Shown: positions 4,087 to 32,952 of the stretch, one piece after another
Layout: each line of letters starts with the position of its first letter
How positions within the stretch are numbered: position 1 is the first letter of the stretch
Assembly (NCBI RefSeq): GCF_016859125.1
Contig: NZ_CP069338.1
Coordinates: 5,705,501-5,769,500, forward strand
Direction of reading: 5' to 3'
DNA from: Archangium violaceum
GTDB lineage: Bacteria > Myxococcota > Myxococcia > Myxococcales > Myxococcaceae
Length of the DNA stretch: 64,000 bases
Program-made: the position numbers and the translations under genes
The notes under the pieces: generated by a model
What the model saw: only the letters and a program-made list of their open reading frames with translations
Database searches by the model: none
What the model was told of the DNA's origin: nothing

Positions 4087-5448
4087 ATGCGACCCCACCT
4101 CCTCCTTCCGGGCCTTCTGCTCTCTCTTCCCGTGTTCGCCGAAGACGCGGGTGTTCCTTCTTCCAGCGCTGTCGTCCGCATTCCCGCCGTGGGCGACTGG
4201 GAGGGCGCTTCCGAGGAGTCCGAGCGGCAGGAACGTCTCCCCCTGCGGTGTGGTCCCTCGTCCGGCGCGGAGGTTCTGCTGTCCACCAGCATCGACCATG
4301 GTGGCTCCTGTGCTCGGGACACGGTGAGCCAGAGCGTGACGGTGCGTGGCGCCGAGGGCCAGGTGTGGCTGGGCTTCGAACGGTCGAGAACCGACGGCGA
4401 GTCGACGCCACCGGCCCTGGAACTGGAGTGCCGGGAGCACACCCTCCGGGTGAGGGTCGGGCGTGCTCCCGCGCTCGAGCTGAAGCCGAAGCCCGAGGGG
4501 GGCGTGTCCGTGGGGCCGTCCCTGGAGCAGGAGCTGATGCGACGACTGTCGGCTCCGGCGCGTGGACAGGTGGAGGAGGCGCGGAGCCTCGAATTCCTGG
4601 TGTCGTTGTTTCTGCCCACGGATGCGTCCTCTTCCCGCCTCAGGACCCTGGCGCTCGTCCATTCCGTGCGCGAGCACGTGGCCGCGGGTGACTGGCGGAG
4701 TACGAGGCGATTGCCGGACCCTGGCGCGTTGGAGAAATGGCCCGACCTGGCCGCCTCCATCCGGGAGGTGGAACGCACCGTGGAGGAGGGCCGCCAGAAG
4801 AGCCAACCGCTGCGCGCGCTGGCGCCCCGCCGCATCGGCAAGCTGCTGCGATTCCCATCGCTGGCTCCGAACGGCCCCGGCCTCTTCTGGCGGGGACGCG
4901 AGCTCTGCGCGCAGCAGCAGGATGACTCCGGCCAGCTGCGCTGCTTCGACACCGGGAAGAACCGCTGGGGCACGCTCGAGCCCATGCCGGAATCACTGTC
5001 GGAGCGCTTCCTGGAATACGTCCCCGGTGGCTGTGGTGCCATCTGCGCCAGCGGGTCGTGCGTCGCGCCTCGGGCCGATCTACTCCTCCTGGGAAGCACC
5101 CTGGGCGAGGCGCTCGTGATGTTCAGCGAGGGCCGTTGGCGTGCCGGTGCCCGCGTGCTCTCCCCGAAGGAGGTGAGCGCCGAGTTCGCCCGTGGGCCCG
5201 GTGGACCGGTGCTGGGTGGCGGCCGCTATGTCTCCCTGGGAGGAGATTACTTCTCCTCCGCGAGTGGCGGGGACTCGCGCAGCTGGCACCTCTTCCCCGC
5301 GCCTCCGTCGGAGCCCGAGGGCGGGCATTGGTTGGGCATGGTCGTCTCGCCGGACCAGAGCCAGGTGGCCGCCATCTCTGGCACATCCTCCTCGCAGCCG
5401 CCGTTCTTCCTCTGGGTGGCGCGCATCGCCCCGGTCAAGGTTCCCTGA
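4087..5448 (+). CDS. Secreted protein of unknown function
   Basis: 453 aa from ATG at 4087, which gives a clean signal peptide (MRPHLLLPGLLLSLPVFA before EDAG). I do not recognise a family. The first half is mixed and charged (residues about 150-270 look helical); the second half has several short Cys-containing beta-like segments (LFWRGRELCAQQQ, CGAICASGSC) suggestive of a beta-propeller-like or disulfide-bonded fold in the periplasm. Divergent from the AgmX-type gene, so the two may be co-regulated. Confidence 0.7.
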   Translation: MRPHLLLPGLLLSLPVFAEDAGVPSSSAVVRIPAVGDWEGASEESERQERLPLRCGPSSGAEVLLSTSIDHGGSCARDTVSQSVTVRGAEGQVWLGFERSRTDGESTPPALELECREHTLRVRVGRAPALELKPKPEGGVSVGPSLEQELMRRLSAPARGQVEEARSLEFLVSLFLPTDASSSRLRTLALVHSVREHVAAGDWRSTRRLPDPGALEKWPDLAASIREVERTVEEGRQKSQPLRALAPRRIGKLLRFPSLAPNGPGLFWRGRELCAQQQDDSGQLRCFDTGKNRWGTLEPMPESLSERFLEYVPGGCGAICASGSCVAPRADLLLLGSTLGEALVMFSEGRWRAGARVLSPKEVSAEFARGPGGPVLGGGRYVSLGGDYFSSASGGDSRSWHLFPAPPSEPEGGHWLGMVVSPDQSQVAAISGTSSSQPPFFLWVARIAPVKVP

Positions 5449-25557: not shown

Positions 25558-26361
25558 TCAGGGCGAACGGTCGCTTCGGGTGATCGCCTCGATGGCGCCT
25601 TTCATGTGCCGTATGCAGGCCTCCACCTCCTCGGTGCGATTCGTCCAATCGTCCTCGCATTCTCCGAGATAGGCGGCGCGCGCCAGTTCGAGCGCCGGCC
25701 TATGCGCCGGCGGCAGCCGTTCCAGCGCCCATGTCGCGGCGACGTCTTTGGGGAAGATCGCTCCCGTCGCGCGTGTCACCCAGATGCGCGCGAGTGCGAG
25801 CAGGACGTTGCGCTCGTCGCCTTCCCAGGTGTCTTCGCTCGTCCACTGTGCTGTCGTTTCGGCGAGGGCTCGGTTCAAATCGGCCGTGGGAATCGGGTCG
25901 AAGAGTTCAGTCGCGGGCGGTCCGAACAGCGCGACGCTGCGCTGTCTCAGCATGGTGAAGAGTATCGCGAGATCCGGATCGAAGGTCGGCGGCGGAATCC
26001 GCTTCGCCACGAGCTCATCGCGCAACCACTCACCAAACTGGAGATCGCGCCGCGCTGGATACCGCCACGGTTTGATGTCATCAATGACGACCGCGGTCAC
26101 TTCGACCGGCCGGACCCGGTCGCCCCGCTTTGGATCGCCCGAGAGCGCCAACAGTTGCTCGACCAGCCGTACACGCCGGTCGCCGACGATGGGCTGCTTG
26201 ACCGCGAGCAGAATGTCGATATCGCTTTTCGGCCGGAGTCCGCCGTTCATCGCCGAGCCGAAGAGATACATGCCGATGACGTCGTCCCCGAGCAGCCGGG
26301 TGAGCATGTTCTCGACCCGAGAAACCTGCGCGTGAGATGCCGTGTCCAAAGCGGTGTTCAT
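25558..26361 (-). CDS. AadA-like aminoglycoside nucleotidyltransferase, ANT(3'')/ANT(9) type
   Basis: 267 aa from ATG at 26361 (AGGATT nine bases upstream). The nucleotidyltransferase signature GSAMNGGLRPKSDIDILL at 35-52 contains the GS and the catalytic Asp47/Asp49 pair. Downstream segments (VTAVVIDDIKPWRYPARRDLQFGEW, NVLLALARIWVTRATGAIFPKDVAATWALERLP) match the AadA family along its length of about 260 aa. These enzymes adenylylate streptomycin/spectinomycin. Sits alone, without integron or transposon features, so it is best viewed as a chromosomal homologue; actual resistance is not shown by sequence. Confidence 0.88.
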   Translation of the reverse strand: MNTALDTASHAQVSRVENMLTRLLGDDVIGMYLFGSAMNGGLRPKSDIDILLAVKQPIVGDRRVRLVEQLLALSGDPKRGDRVRPVEVTAVVIDDIKPWRYPARRDLQFGEWLRDELVAKRIPPPTFDPDLAILFTMLRQRSVALFGPPATELFDPIPTADLNRALAETTAQWTSEDTWEGDERNVLLALARIWVTRATGAIFPKDVAATWALERLPPAHRPALELARAAYLGECEDDWTNRTEEVEACIRHMKGAIEAITRSDRSP

Positions 26362-26624
26362 GATGCACAATCCTGGTGCGTCTTCCGGTAGGTGGAATAC
26401 TCGTTCCGGACCGAAGTGGAGCAGTCGGAGCGTCAGCGAAGCTGGCCAGGGTTCACTTCACCCCCTTCCTGGCCCGGGTCAAATTCCCATCCCCTTGCGC
26501 ACCGAGTCGCCCGTGCGGGATTGAACGACCTGAATGTGCCCATATGGGACTTGTGGTATCCTCATCCATTCTGGCTTCCTGCCGGTTGTTCAGGAGTACA
26601 ACGTGCTGCACGGGAGAGGCTCTC

Positions 26625-27182: not shown

Positions 27183-27189
27183 CCCGGCT

Positions 27190-27374
27190 CCACGCGGGAT
27201 GTTGTCGTTGACGTAATGCACGAGCGCAGCGGCGTCGGAGGCGTGAATGTCGTTGTCACCGATGGTGCCCTTGACGGCAATCATGGGCGTGCCGCCGATG
27301 GCGCGGATGGCGGCGAAGTACCGGGCGCCTTCGTGAGCGCTCTGATTGGGAGCAGCGCGTGACGCTGGACGCAA
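27190..27374 (-). pseudogene. Unassigned gene fragment
   Basis: A minus-strand stretch reads like real protein (GARYFAAIRAIGGTPMIAVK, DNDIHASDAAALVHYVNDN) but has no plausible start site and runs into unrelated sequence at both ends. Family not recognised. It lies immediately upstream of, and antisense to the start of, the lasso precursor. Confidence 0.35.
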
Positions 27375-27484
27375 GGGTGGTCTACGAGCCGCCCGTGTTG
27401 ACCGTTATGGGAAAGGTCGAACACCTCACGGCACTCTTCCCTCGCGGCGTGCCTGATGTGTTGGGGCACGGCAACCTCATCTAG
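27359..27484 (+). CDS. Candidate lasso peptide precursor (A)
   Basis: 41 aa from GTG at 27359, with GGGAG six bases upstream; too short for routine gene calling. Residues 9-24 fit the lasso leader motif YxxPxLxxxGxxxxxT exactly: Tyr9, Pro12, Leu14, Gly18, Thr24. In this class the Thr is the penultimate leader residue, so cleavage after Ala25 would release the core LFPRGVPDVLGHGNLI. Asp33 is core residue 8, the right place for a Leu1-Asp8 macrolactam; Leu at position 1 with Asp at 8 is known from citrulassin-type lasso peptides. A lasso B2-type protease gene lies 430 bp downstream, which strongly supports the call. Confidence 0.72.
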   Translation: MTLDARVVYEPPVLTVMGKVEHLTALFPRGVPDVLGHGNLI

Positions 27485-27581
27485 CATCGCGCAGGCAGTG
27501 TAGGCACTGTAGCGAGCCGTCGTAGCCGATCGAACCATTCAGTGAAGATCGCGGGGCCCCGGGTCGACGCTGGTGTGTTGA

Positions 27582-27914
27582 GACCGTAAACACAGCTCGC
27601 TGGATGAATGGCTCGGATCCGGCAGCTTCACGGTGCAGTTATGTTGCATGGCACCGAGATCATCGGAGACTACACGGGCTGCTCAGGGCAAGTCGTTTTC
27701 TACCAATCCGGCGGACTTGATCGAGGAGCCGGACGCGGACATCGACCGCGCGGCGATCTGGCGCTGCTGTCGGGGCGAAGGGCCCATCATCTACCACTCC
27801 ATGGAGCGAGTCCGGCCGGGCCTGGTGGTGGTCCTCGAGCAGCACCGCACGACCGCCGTCGAGTACGATCGGATCACCCCGATGGCGCTGCCGCGCACGC
27901 CGCCCGCGCCCTGA
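27582..27914 (+). pseudogene. Lasso cyclase (asparagine synthetase-like, C) remnant
   Basis: 111 open codons after a TGA at 27579; possible GTG at 27633 but no good site. The segment from FSTNPADLIEEPDADIDRAA to MERVRPGLVVVLEQHRTT and VEYDRITPM has the spacing of the end of the glutaminase-like domain of lasso cyclases and AsnB. A cyclase should have about 600 residues; the catalytic synthetase domain is missing here and the frame ends eleven codons later, two bases before the next ATG. An internal deletion that removed the rest of C and any B1 (RRE) gene would explain this. Assignment by pattern only. Confidence 0.5.
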
Positions 27915-27916
27915 GG

Positions 27917-28330
27917 ATGCTGCGAAAGCAAGGCTGGGGACCAGCTTCTCGCTATCTGCGGCAGTTGCGCCCCGTCCCGGGGAGTGACCGCTACGCCGCG
28001 CTTCCGCCGCTCGCCGCGATCCGCCTCGCCCGCCAGGAGATCCTGTGGAGCCAGCTCGTCCTGCGGCTCCTCGAGCCCAACGGGATCTGTCTGCCTGGCT
28101 CGTTCTCGCTCGCTGTCTACCTCTCCGCCTTCGGCCTGCCCTGCGAGGTCACGGTGGCGCGCGAGCTTTGCTCGAGCAACCCGGAGTACAGCTTCCACTC
28201 CTGGGCTGAGCTCCACGGCGAGGTGCTCAATGACACTCCAGCGGTCAAGCAGGGATTCAAGGTGCTCCAGCGGGTTTCCGCTGACGCCATCGCCGCTCGC
28301 AAGGGCGGCGGGAACCCGGAGCGGCGCTGA
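27917..28330 (+). CDS. Lasso peptide biosynthesis B2 protein (leader protease)
   Basis: 137 aa from ATG at 27917. A helical N-terminus (LAAIRLARQEILWSQLVLRLL) leads into the transglutaminase-like cysteine protease core of lasso B2 proteins: Cys58 in GICLPGSFSLAVYLSAFGL, His94 in FHSWAELHG and Asp106 in GEVLND form the expected Cys-His-Asp triad. B2 cuts the leader from the precursor so that the cyclase can close the ring. No B1 (RRE) gene is found, and the cyclase next to it is truncated, so this protease appears intact but stranded. Confidence 0.8.
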   Translation: MLRKQGWGPASRYLRQLRPVPGSDRYAALPPLAAIRLARQEILWSQLVLRLLEPNGICLPGSFSLAVYLSAFGLPCEVTVARELCSSNPEYSFHSWAELHGEVLNDTPAVKQGFKVLQRVSADAIAARKGGGNPERR

Positions 28331-28673
28331 GGAGAGCAGACTCGCCTCCGTCACCTCCTCGTCGATACCCGGGTACTCGTCGCGCTGGCCGAACCGAACG
28401 AGCGAAAATCTCGGGAGGGGCGGCGGCGAGCATCGCGGCCGTCGATCGCACCTGGCCGCAGCGGTTCACCGGCGCCGCAACGGAGTCGGCCGCACGATGC
28501 GGTGACGCGTGTGCTTGAGCGGCTGCGGATGGGGACGGAGAGGCCCCTGGCCCCTGCCGCGCCCGCGTGTACCTCGAGCTGGCCGACGCGACGCCGGCCG
28601 AAGCCGATCGCGGGATGGCGATGCTCGAGAAGCTGGTGGGGTGAGGCCGGGGGTCGGGGCTCCGCGGAAATAA
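28331..28673. other. Intergenic region with a possible gene tail
   Basis: No complete gene. On the plus strand a frame ending with TGA at about 28643 (ARVYLELADATPAEADRG, then EKLVG) looks like the last 30 residues of a lost gene. Nothing else recognised. Confidence 0.35.
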
Positions 28674-28695
28674 CGGAACCAGATAGTTTCGGAAC

Positions 28696-28724
28696 TTGAC
28701 GGTTCCGGAACTCGCGGGTATCAA
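28696..28724 (+). promoter_or_regulatory. Promoter with embedded palindromic operator for the TetR-VOC pair
   Basis: TTGACG (28696-28701), 17 bases, TATCAA (28719-28724). The spacer contains the perfect palindrome GTTCCGGAAC (28702-28711). Further GGAAC half-sites lie at 28675 and 28691. The layout fits autorepression by the TetR protein encoded just downstream. Confidence 0.6.
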
Positions 28725-28745
28725 CATCATCTCGAGGATGACTGC

Positions 28746-29483
28746 ATGACTCAGAACGATGACGACGCCGTTGCCGCCGAGCCCGCACAGCCAGGACGCA
28801 AGCGAGACCACTCGCGCGACGCGAAGATCCTCGACGCCACGCTCGAGGTTCTCGCCGAGGTGGGCGCAGCGGGCCTGACAATGGACATCGTGGCCGCGCG
28901 AGCCGGAGCCGGGAAGGCGACCATCTACCGCCGATGGACGTCGAAGACGGAGCTGGTCATCGATGCCGTCGCGCACATGAAACGCAATCAGGTCGATCTC
29001 GAGCGTCTGCCCGACACGGGCACGCTCCGCGGAGACCTGCTCGGCCTGTTCAAGCCGCAGTCGATCGAAGAAGGCGAGCGCAAGCTCAAGATCATGACGG
29101 GGCTCGCCTCGTTGCTCTCGCAGGACCAGACGCTCGCCGAGGCAGCAAACGCCGCGGTGGTCCAACCGTGGGCCGAAGCGCACTTCGCGCTGATGCGGCG
29201 AGCGGTCGAACGCGGTGAGATCTCGGCGTCCGCCGACATCGTCACTCTGTCCCAGGTCATCCCGTCGATGGCCGCCTACCGCACCCTGGTTCAGCGCAAG
29301 CCGATGGACCTGGCCTTCCTCGTGTCGATGGTTGACGGAGTCATCATGCCGGCCCTCCGGCCTCAGCCCTCGGCGGTACCACCAGATTCGACAGGTCACA
29401 GACCTGTCCCCATCACCTCACGGGTCGAAGAATCCCCGTCGCCCCGACGAGCCGCGAGCGTGCGGAGACGCTCGAAAACCTGA
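28746..29483 (+). CDS. TetR family transcriptional regulator
   Basis: 245 aa; GAGG eight bases before the ATG. N-terminal helix-turn-helix domain typical of TetR (KILDATLEVLAEVGAAGLTMDIVAARAGAGKATIYRRWTSKTELV, about residues 27-72), then a helical ligand-binding domain resembling the TetR_C_11/16 group (VVQPWAEAHFALMRRAVERGEIS). The last 35 residues are a disordered Pro/Ser/Arg tail. Probably represses its own promoter and the VOC gene 19 bp downstream through the palindrome in the spacer. Confidence 0.9.
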   Translation: MTQNDDDAVAAEPAQPGRKRDHSRDAKILDATLEVLAEVGAAGLTMDIVAARAGAGKATIYRRWTSKTELVIDAVAHMKRNQVDLERLPDTGTLRGDLLGLFKPQSIEEGERKLKIMTGLASLLSQDQTLAEAANAAVVQPWAEAHFALMRRAVERGEISASADIVTLSQVIPSMAAYRTLVQRKPMDLAFLVSMVDGVIMPALRPQPSAVPPDSTGHRPVPITSRVEESPSPRRAASVRRRSKT

Positions 29484-29502
29484 ACCTGCATAGGAGAGAG
29501 AC

Positions 29503-29928
29503 ATGACCGTCAGCGTTACCAACCACCTCAACTTCCGTGGCGATGCTCGTGCGGCGCTGGAGTTCTACCAGTCCGTGTTCGGCGGGGACATCACCATTGT
29601 CACCTACAAGGACGCCCATAGCGTCCAGGATCCGTCCGAGGCGAATCAGGTGATGTGGGGCCAGGTCGCCGCCAAGAACGGCTTTCGAGTGATGGCGTAC
29701 GACGTGCCGTCCCGGATGCCGTGGGACGAAGGCAAGAATGCATTCTTCGTCTCTGTCCGCGGTGACTCGGATAAGGAAATCACCGCGCTCTGGGAAAAGC
29801 TCTCCGTTGGCGCGACCGTCGCGCAGCCACTGGCGCCGTCGGGATGGGCGCCCCTCTACGGCATGCTCAAGGACCGCTTCGGCATCACGTGGGTCCTGGA
29901 TGTCGCTACGGAGTACAAGGCGCACTGA
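29503..29928 (+). CDS. VOC family protein (PhnB-like glyoxalase superfamily)
   Basis: 141 aa, strong site AGGAGAG before the ATG. PhnB-type pattern: NHLNFRGDARAALEFYQSVFGGDITIVTYKD at the N-terminus, FFVSVRGDSDKEITALWEKLSVGATV in the middle, PLAPSGWAPLYGMLKDRFGITWVLDV at the end, which is the usual paired beta-alpha-beta-beta-beta module fold. Family members bind small ligands or metal; reaction unknown. In an operon behind the TetR regulator, so it is the likely regulated target. Confidence 0.88.
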   Translation: MTVSVTNHLNFRGDARAALEFYQSVFGGDITIVTYKDAHSVQDPSEANQVMWGQVAAKNGFRVMAYDVPSRMPWDEGKNAFFVSVRGDSDKEITALWEKLSVGATVAQPLAPSGWAPLYGMLKDRFGITWVLDVATEYKAH

Positions 29929-29980
29929 GCCAGCGACGGAACGGGCGCGGATCCGCCAGGCAACATCGCTACTCTCGAGC

Positions 29981-30385
29981 ATGGTCGAGCGAACCAATGC
30001 GGACCTCGCTGCTCGAGGTAGACCTCTGTTCACGCTCAAGACCATTCCCCAAGGCGCCGCGACCTCGGTCTGGGCTGGAGTGGTGGCCTCGGCGGACGAC
30101 GTTGGAGGCCGCTACTGCGAAAATCGCCATGTCACCACCAGGGGGGCCTTCAACCCGCTCGATCCCAGCAGCGAAGGGGGCCGTCTGGGCGAAGAGCGGA
30201 GCGTTGGTGTGCGAGAGTTTCTGAGTCGGCTCCTGGGAGTCCCCGAGACGGCAGGCATCGCCGCGATGCACACCATTTTCGATGATACTGTGTCGTTCAG
30301 GCCCATGTTTGAATTGGAAGGCTTGGCATGCATCCACCCGAAGCTCGCTCATTCGAGACAGTTGACCAGCTCGAAAGTTGGCTGA
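29981..30385 (+). pseudogene. Short-chain dehydrogenase C-terminal remnant
   Basis: Open frame of 134 codons whose first half reads FTLKTIPQGAATSVWAGVVA then DVGGRYCENRHV and FNPLDPSSEGG, which is the C-terminal end of retinol-dehydrogenase-like SDRs (EQGAATSVW...GG.YCE). The nucleotide-binding and catalytic parts are absent. After about residue 75 the sequence is unrelated. No site before the ATG. A decayed gene end. Confidence 0.55.
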
Positions 30386-30897: not shown

Positions 30898-31260
30898 GAG
30901 CATGAGGTTGCTTCGCCTGCGTCCGCGGTTCCGGCGATCGAACTCTGTCCACCCGGTCGTGCCGCAGGCTCGGTGAGCAAGCCATCCGGCCGCAATGGAA
31001 ATCAGGTCTCCTTATCGGTTTGAACAAGGCGAGCCGCTGCCCTCGGAGCCGCACAACATCATCATCGGCGGCATCTCCATTCCTGCCAGGCGTTCTTTCG
31101 CCAATGCTCCAAAGCTGCTCGCTTCGACAAATGATTGTTGTTTGACGGGGAGATGGACTCCGGGCAGTAGGCAGGATTGATCCAAAGTCCGTAGGAGAGG
31201 TTTTGAAGAGGCGGAGAGCAAGTCCAGACATTCACAGGCAAAGAGGGAGCATCCCTCCGG
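30898..31260. other. Intergenic region before the IS-like element
   Basis: 363 bp without a supported gene. A minus-strand open frame (31012-31221) lacks a site and family resemblance. The right part probably belongs to the flank or end of the transposase element, but I could not identify terminal inverted repeats. Confidence 0.4.
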
Positions 31261-31285
31261 ACGGCGCCTGAAAGAGGGGCGCCGT
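31261..31285. terminator. Perfect 8-bp stem hairpin
   Basis: ACGGCGCC (31261-31268) pairs with GGCGCCGT (31278-31285), loop TGAAAGAGG. Lies 87 bp beyond the transposase stop; may be its terminator or part of the element end. Confidence 0.5.
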
Positions 31286-31371
31286 GGAAGGACAGGAGTG
31301 AAGGTACACAGGCCGAACAGCCAGGGGAGAAGAGGCGCGGGAAGGCCGGAGCGGGAGCAGCTGGCGGGCGC

Positions 31372-32684
31372 TCAGGCAAGTGTGGCCAGACTCTCGGGCA
31401 GCACGGCCAGACCCAACAGGCCCTGGTAGAGCACCTCCATGGTGCGTGCGAAGCTTTGGGGCCGTTTGTCGCGAGTCGGCAGGTGCGTGCGCACCAGGGC
31501 CAGCAGGTTGTAGGCCAGCAAACGCAGCCAGCTGAGTACCAGGGGTGCATTGCCTCGCAGGCTGGGCGAGGCGCTGTCCTCCTCCAGCACCACGTCCGCT
31601 GTCCAGTTGGGCCCGTTCTCAATCCCCCAGTGCCGGCGTACCAACGTCAGCATCCGCTCCGGGGACAGTTGCCCTGTGGGAATGGAGGTGAGGAACAGCC
31701 GCGTCTCCACCTTCGGCAGCTCGCCGTCTCTGGTTCGCGTCTGCCTCACCCATACCCATTGCTGGGCGCCGGGAAAGTCCTCCTCTGGCGGCTTGTCCAC
31801 CACCCTCAACTCCCTCTCCACCCACTCCCCGCTCGTCCGCTCGCGCGTGCGCACCTTCACTGGCGCCACCGCCAGCGCCACCCACGCCTTGTCATGTAGC
31901 CGGTGGAAGTTCTCCTTGAGCGCCATCAGGTAGTGCTTGCCCGCCTCCCTCACCACCCGCGCATTGGCCGCGCTCGTCATTCCCGCGTCCACTGTCACGT
32001 ACTCGAAATGCCGCCCGAACTTCTCCACCACCCGTTTGAACAACTCCGGGAACGCCGTCGCCTCTCCCTGCTTGCCTTCCAGCAACTTCTGGTCGAGCAC
32101 CGGCTGGGCCGCGCTGCTGGTGAGACTGGCGCGCAGCGCGTACGGGTACCAGTACTCCCGCCCCTGCTCATCCTTCGTCGTGTGGCTCGGCTCGCACGGC
32201 GGCTGCCCCGGCGTGCTCTCCCCTGCCTTCCCGTCAATGCTGACGACGCCCCGGGCGAAGAGCTCATGGCGTATCAGCCCCACTTCCAGGCCTCGGTGCA
32301 CCATCTGGTGCACCTCCTGCTCCAACCCCTCTGGCTCCAACTTCCCCAGCAGCCTATCCAACGTCGTGTCGGACACCGGCCGCTTCAGCCCCTCGGGCGC
32401 CGTGCCTTCGCGCAGCATGTCCTCCCCCAGCGCCTCGGCATGCCTCAACACCCGCCGCCCCACCGCCAGCGCCTGCACCAGCAGCATCAACATCGCCGCC
32501 AGCGGATGCCTCTGTCCCCGGCGGGCCCGGGGTCCTTTACCTCCTTGAATGTCAGCCCCAGGCTCGCCATCATCCTCTGCACGCGGGAGGGGGTTTCCTG
32601 CTCGTCCTTCTTCCCCTTCCCGTTTCCCGCTTGGGGTGTGGATGGCCCGCCAGTCCTCCCGCCCCGGTTTTTCTTCCCACTCAT
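31372..32684 (-). pseudogene. ISAs1-type transposase split by a -1 frameshift
   Basis: The coding region starts at ATG 32684 (GGGGAG seven bases upstream) and runs in one frame to about 32530, then continues in another to 31372. Joining them restores VKDPRARRGQRHPLAAM, the usual N-terminal motif of ISAs1 transposases. The shift falls in GACCCCGGG: one extra C would repair it. The DDE parts are intact: Asp in VVSIDGKAG, Asp in VTVDAGMTS, and Glu in the HWGIENGPNWTADVVLEED segment. About 437 aa if repaired. Either an inactivated copy, a programmed frameshift, or a sequencing error. Clear terminal inverted repeats and target duplication were not found. Confidence 0.85.
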
Positions 32685-32952
32685 CCTTCTTCTCCCCGGA
32701 CCTGTCCGGCCCGTCTCCGGCTCTGTGCTGGCGCTCCCCCTCGCGATCAGCCCGCGGCTGCTCGCCTCCGGTGGGCGCCTGTAGGCGGGACTATACTTCA
32801 GCCGTAGGCCCGGGTGGGATGACCTCTCCCGTGGGACTTTGAATCAAGCCTGCGGGCAGTAGGTGGCCCGTGCGGTGCCGTGCCAGGAAAGGCCTCGCCG
32901 CACAGCGCTACTGTCGCTTCATCTATTTCCTGTCATTCTCAAAGAGAGAAAA

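Follow-up and report, generated by a model that had tools for sequence, protein, structure and literature searches.

Genes and features of the locus

The window analysed here is a 64,000-nt stretch of the Archangium violaceum genome (NZ_CP069338.1, positions 5,705,501 to 5,769,500); positions given without further label refer to it. Elements of a lasso-peptide locus, namely a precursor (A), a cyclase (C) fragment and a leader peptidase (B2), were located on the plus strand at 27359-28330, each where the first-pass annotation had placed it. The precursor ORF (27359..27484, GTG start) encodes 41 aa, MTLDARVVYEPPVLTVMGKVEHLTA/LFPRGVPDVLGHGNLI, with the leader at 27359-27433 and the predicted core, LFPRGVPDVLGHGNLI, at 27434-27481. 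As that annotation had described, the leader carries the motif YxxPxLxxxGxxxxxT, with Thr at position -2, and the core has Asp8, a ring acceptor of the Asp/Glu type at core positions 7-9. The strict motif occurred once in the six-frame translation of the window and in none of 30 second-order Markov simulations of the window. The NCBIfam profile lasso_leader_L3 matched the precursor at E=0.0015 (18.4 bits, just below the cut-off of 19).

The precursor is followed by the A-C spacer (27485..27640, plus strand), an N-terminal remnant of C reading MLHGTEIIGDYTGCSGQVV... (27641..27697, plus strand), a second remnant, from the C-terminal portion of the glutaminase half of C (27698..27893, plus strand) and an N-terminally truncated B2 of 137 aa (27917..28330, plus strand). 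The second C remnant is readable in a 93-aa ORF (27633-27914), out of frame with the first; this ORF matched no family by profile but aligned to the cyclase gene of the related cluster described below. The ORF listing also contains an open frame of 240 aa (27608..28330, plus strand) in which the N-terminus of C, C sequence read out of frame and B2 are fused. This frame gave the lasso-family match predicted for the protease product, to PF13471 at 26.4 bits (cut-off 26), and a sub-threshold match to NF033537 (lasso_biosyn_B2) at 25.9 bits (cut-off 33). Because profile support from the window by itself is marginal, the case for a lasso origin rests on comparison with a related cluster.

A related cluster in a soil metagenome

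One relative was found among ~85,000 genomes scanned. This uncharacterised cluster, here called L006, lies on contig VBLP01000432.1 of a soil metagenome-assembled genome (MAG) titled Deltaproteobacteria isolate DP_38, and has the gene order A-C-B1-B2. Its precursor is 42 aa (MKTKTNKVSYAKPTLTVKGKVEQLTALVDRGTPDLLSHGNII; lasso_cyano 23 bits, below the cut-off of that profile), its cyclase gene matched Asn_synthase at 62 bits and encodes an SGGIDSS loop, its B1 is 92 aa (PqqD, PF05402, 35 bits; lasso_PqqD_Strm 48 bits) and its B2 is 177 aa (PF13471, 29.7 bits). No transporter gene was seen directly downstream of the cluster, no relative was found in the plasmid and viral collections searched, and the L006 B2 sequence had no match among solved structures. 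A precursor profile run over 318 genomes of the class to which L006 belongs gave a strong match to L006 only, and the remaining matches were rejected as leader-level or chance.

The 41-aa ORF of the window is conserved in this relative, where a counterpart of 61% identity heads the cluster. From Val7 onward 13 of 19 leader residues agree, as do 10 of the 16 core residues, which include Leu1, Arg4, Gly5, Pro7, Asp8 and HGN. The reading that a chance motif happens to lie beside a generic transglutaminase-like protein, with no lasso locus at all, could draw on the 25.9 bits of B2 against the NF033537 cut-off of 33 and on a precursor narrowly under the leader cut-off, but it is refuted by the syntenic L006 cluster with its C and B1 and by precursors that agree at 61%, core Asp8 included; we give it a negligible probability. 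The open-licence literature searched contained no account of this peptide and none of lasso clusters in the genus, in line with the first-pass view that the peptide appears undescribed. The two sequences indicate a core family, probably not described before, with the pattern L-x-x-R-G-x-P-D-x-L-x-H-G-N-[IL]-I and a fuller cluster in the soil MAG; for heterologous expression, a cluster of the L006 type is to be preferred. What is new is the peptide sequence added to the record; the biology itself is not new.

L006 has the full gene order, but the integrity of its C is unproven because window positions 27740-27815 (76 bp) are missing from it (at about 4416-4418), which shifts the frame of the L006 cyclase and splits it. 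This gap is possibly an independent decay event or a metagenome assembly error. The A-C-B1-B2 cluster anticipated in related genomes was therefore recovered as a gene order; a fully intact copy was not seen, L006 included.

Two internal deletions

Window and L006 aligned in four collinear blocks of 73, 83, 86 and 88% identity, running from the precursor to the exact stop codon of B2. The precursor and A-C spacer agree with L006 at 70-74% nucleotide identity (spacer, 72% over 141 aligned bases). The C N-terminal remnant is 72% identical to L006 3962-4018, after which the first deletion junction (approximately 27697/27698) joins the equivalents of L006 4018 and 4376, so that about 357 bp of C are missing relative to L006. 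This deletion falls within the N-terminal half of C and causes a frameshift. The next remnant matches L006 4376-4417 and 4417-4495 at 83% and 90% nucleotide identity, respectively. At the second junction (approximately 27885..27897), where there is partial sequence similarity, the alignment passes from about 4495 to about 5977 of L006; the roughly 1.48 kb missing here holds, in L006, the synthetase domain of C, the complete B1 gene and some 30-40 codons at the start of B2. The 240-aa chimeric ORF exists because the two deletions together keep the C N-terminus in the frame of B2, with the middle C segment out of frame.

The fragment likened in the first-pass annotation to the glutaminase half of a lasso cyclase is thus homologous to a cyclase gene, with the correction that it is internally deleted and frameshifted. 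The loss of the synthetase domain and B1 was likewise borne out by L006, but it involved two deletions rather than the single event proposed. Of the cyclase, scraps of the N-terminal half are left, and both C and B1, which a functional lasso cluster needs, were looked for and are absent at the locus. The arrangement is that of a degraded remnant, collinear with an A-C-B1-B2 cluster and internally deleted.

The leader peptidase

The B2 of the window is 85% identical to L006 B2 in amino acids and 88% in nucleotides, with homology beginning at 27893, and has lost about 30-40 N-terminal residues. Cys58, His94 and Asp106, named in the first-pass annotation as those of a B2 protease, are all present. 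In an alignment with 40 B2 proteins drawn from the search matches, Cys58, His94 and Trp96 fell at positions invariant in 40/40; at the Asp106 position Glu was commonest (17) and Asp occurred in 2. Gly61 stands where these proteins have a conserved polar residue (Arg in 30, Gln in 8, Lys in 2) and where L006 has Arg (Arg101 of L006 B2). An AlphaFold2 model of B2 built from a two-row alignment was set aside (mean pLDDT 39).

Over B2, window and L006 differ by 49 substitutions and 20 amino acid changes (31.8 +/- 2.8 amino acid changes expected when these substitutions are placed neutrally; 0/5000 simulations as low), with dN/dS of 0.29 (NG86) or 0.12 (YN00). The few amino acid changes and the low dN/dS indicate that B2 was constrained for much of the divergence; similar totals could come from constraint on the L006 branch only, and they do not show that B2 functioned recently on the window branch. 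With two copies only, the changes are not assignable to either branch and do not date the decay.

Edges of the island

Homology to L006 ended at both edges of the segment, falling to 36% upstream, near the precursor start, and to 42% downstream, at the B2 stop codon, against a mean of 46% for unrelated controls; on both sides the flanking DNA of the two loci is unrelated. Directly 5' of the precursor, at the upper island edge, lies a fragment of approximately 50 codons of an unrelated gene (27187..27340, minus strand); over 46 aa it shares 67% identity with a portion of a predicted lipoprotein of 488 aa encoded by a family relative (G031), and it was not found in the five genus relatives. The precursor has probably lost its native 5' region, because the upstream DNA is non-homologous to L006 and holds this debris. 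No sigma-70-like promoter was found for the precursor, and the apparent ribosome site, called good in the first-pass annotation, is doubtful: judged from the non-homologous upstream DNA with its other-strand gene debris, it is likely fortuitous, and the ORF itself stands. The description of the protease as intact-looking was generous: the B2 frame is open and its catalytic residues are kept, but its N-terminus is lost and Gly61 stands at the site of a conserved polar residue. The 5' flank of the precursor has apparently been replaced.

At the lower edge of the island, an 88-bp stretch (28557-28645) recurs in the genome at positions 603 and 13200 (89-90% identity).

The open frames bear on the reading that the reduced locus is still functional, B2 or the 240-aa chimera cutting the precursor to give a linear peptide with a role of its own. 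Both the precursor and B2 frames remain open, B2 retains its Cys, His and Asp, and B2 has overall been constrained since the split from L006. Against this, the locus lacks B1, which is described as delivering the leader to the peptidase (PMC10368454), B2 has lost its N-terminus and has Gly at the position of L006 Arg101, the precursor has probably lost its native upstream DNA and no sigma-70-like promoter was found, and no relative among 95 of the family keeps the arrangement. We regard such a function as very improbable, and its more specific form, in which expression of the precursor and B2 (or of the C-B2 chimeric frame) continues and yields a linear, unthreaded core peptide for use by the bacterium, as slightly more improbable again; if true, it would mean that a lasso system had been converted into a linear-peptide system.

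Search for a cyclase in trans and distribution of the cluster

Maturation in trans was also considered, with a lasso cyclase and RRE encoded elsewhere in the genome acting on the precursor. Genes for lasso tailoring enzymes can lie far from their clusters, as does that for the PAD of citrulassin (PMC9266682). A search of the complete, single-contig 12.68-Mb genome with PF00733 (Asn_synthase), however, gave two matches only, one of them MnmA and the other a protein that we read as LarE-like from its sequence and motif. The genome therefore has no lasso cyclase able to act in trans, contrary to the possibility of a second cyclase raised in the first-pass annotation, and its single lasso-like B2 is that of the locus. 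Maturation in trans is largely refuted and we place it, like the chance reading, at the very bottom of the scale. With B1 missing from the locus and the cyclase missing genome-wide, no lasso peptide would be made by the known route.

Among 95 family relatives no close B2 was found and none scored above the family cut-off. B2 proteins above the cut-off were present in 11/195 genomes of the phylum set of the window and in 69/318 of the class of L006. Genus relatives matched each of the two flanks, but the matches did not share a single location. The lasso segment was unmatched in them over any length save for 68 bp in one (G004:C23:186002-186069), 82% identical to window 27884-27951, where the C remnant ends and B2 starts; this stretch might be a further, smaller piece of lasso B2 or a GC-rich match due to chance. 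Weak B2-like matches in two other genomes (G144 and G145) fell far below the L006 match and were rejected, as were two more (G217 and G209), read as chance, which also fell far below L006 and whose neighbourhoods (L034 and L035) had no lasso genes.

The organisms carrying the window locus and L006 are distant, as the L006 genome falls outside the 195-genome phylum set of the window. The 88% DNA identity of B2 between distant organisms, together with the unrelated flanks and the patchy distribution, points to horizontal transfer, most simply into the lineage of the window.

Interpretation and comparison with known systems

We read 27359-28330 as the pseudogenised, decayed remnant of an A-C-B1-B2 lasso-peptide cluster that was probably acquired horizontally and then suffered two deletions (probability roughly 0.93). 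The ancestral cluster would have encoded, in order, a precursor, an Asn-synthetase-like cyclase, a PqqD-like recognition element and a transglutaminase-like leader peptidase, and its product would have been a 16-residue lasso peptide with a putative Leu1-Asp8 isopeptide ring. It probably arrived horizontally, from a candidate donor in the same class as the L006 MAG. Two internal deletions, which probably followed its arrival, took out most of C, B1 in its entirety and the start of B2. What survives is a precursor that is nearly complete but has probably lost its native 5' flank, together with fragments of C and a shortened B2. The remnant is almost certainly non-functional, and from its sequence the cluster, demonstrably derived from a lasso cluster, appears dead or dying, the still-open precursor and B2 frames, the latter without an internal stop, being the evidence counter to decay. 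As such the locus would record how a lineage otherwise without such clusters gained a lasso cluster that then decayed. It also calls for caution, in that a profile search alone could report the fragment as a lasso B2 match though the pathway is missing.

A parallel with the citrulassin family of Streptomyces, whose ring joins Leu1 and Asp8, was drawn in the first-pass annotation; apart from Leu1/Asp8 the cores are unlike, and the window cluster is broken. L006 is the closest comparison, with a homologous and collinear precursor (61%), B2 (85% in amino acids), A-C spacer and parts of C, but it differs in having the synthetase domain and B1, in the 76-bp gap in its C and in its unrelated flanks. 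The bsf cluster of Bradymonas sediminis (PMC10368454) resembles the ancestral arrangement in its discrete B1 and B2 and in the YxxPxL motif of its leader, but has in addition an ABC transporter, a kinase and a nucleotidyltransferase, and has Ile at leader position -2 where the window precursor has Thr; two steps of the bsf pathway, those of the peptidase and the kinase, have been demonstrated in vitro. McjB of microcin J25 (PMC11420955) is, like the window B2, a transglutaminase-like Cys-His-Asp leader peptidase, but is an RRE-protease fusion, whereas the window B2 was a separate protein and is now truncated.

Neighbouring elements

A 1.68-kb stretch at 31170-32853, containing a DDE transposase gene (31372-32493, minus strand), is 99.8% identical to a second copy in the same genome (G000:C1, about 10942399-10944083) and represents a recently moved insertion sequence. 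A stretch with a TetR regulator and a glyoxalase-like gene (28686-30228) has a second genome copy near 10.94 Mb at 84-87% identity, adjoining the other copy of the insertion sequence. On the other side of the locus, an AadA-type aminoglycoside nucleotidyltransferase homologue (25558-26370, minus strand; AadA_C 107 bits) is shared with one genus relative, and an element of roughly 140 bp (26377-26515) has many repeats in the genus at 74-86% identity.
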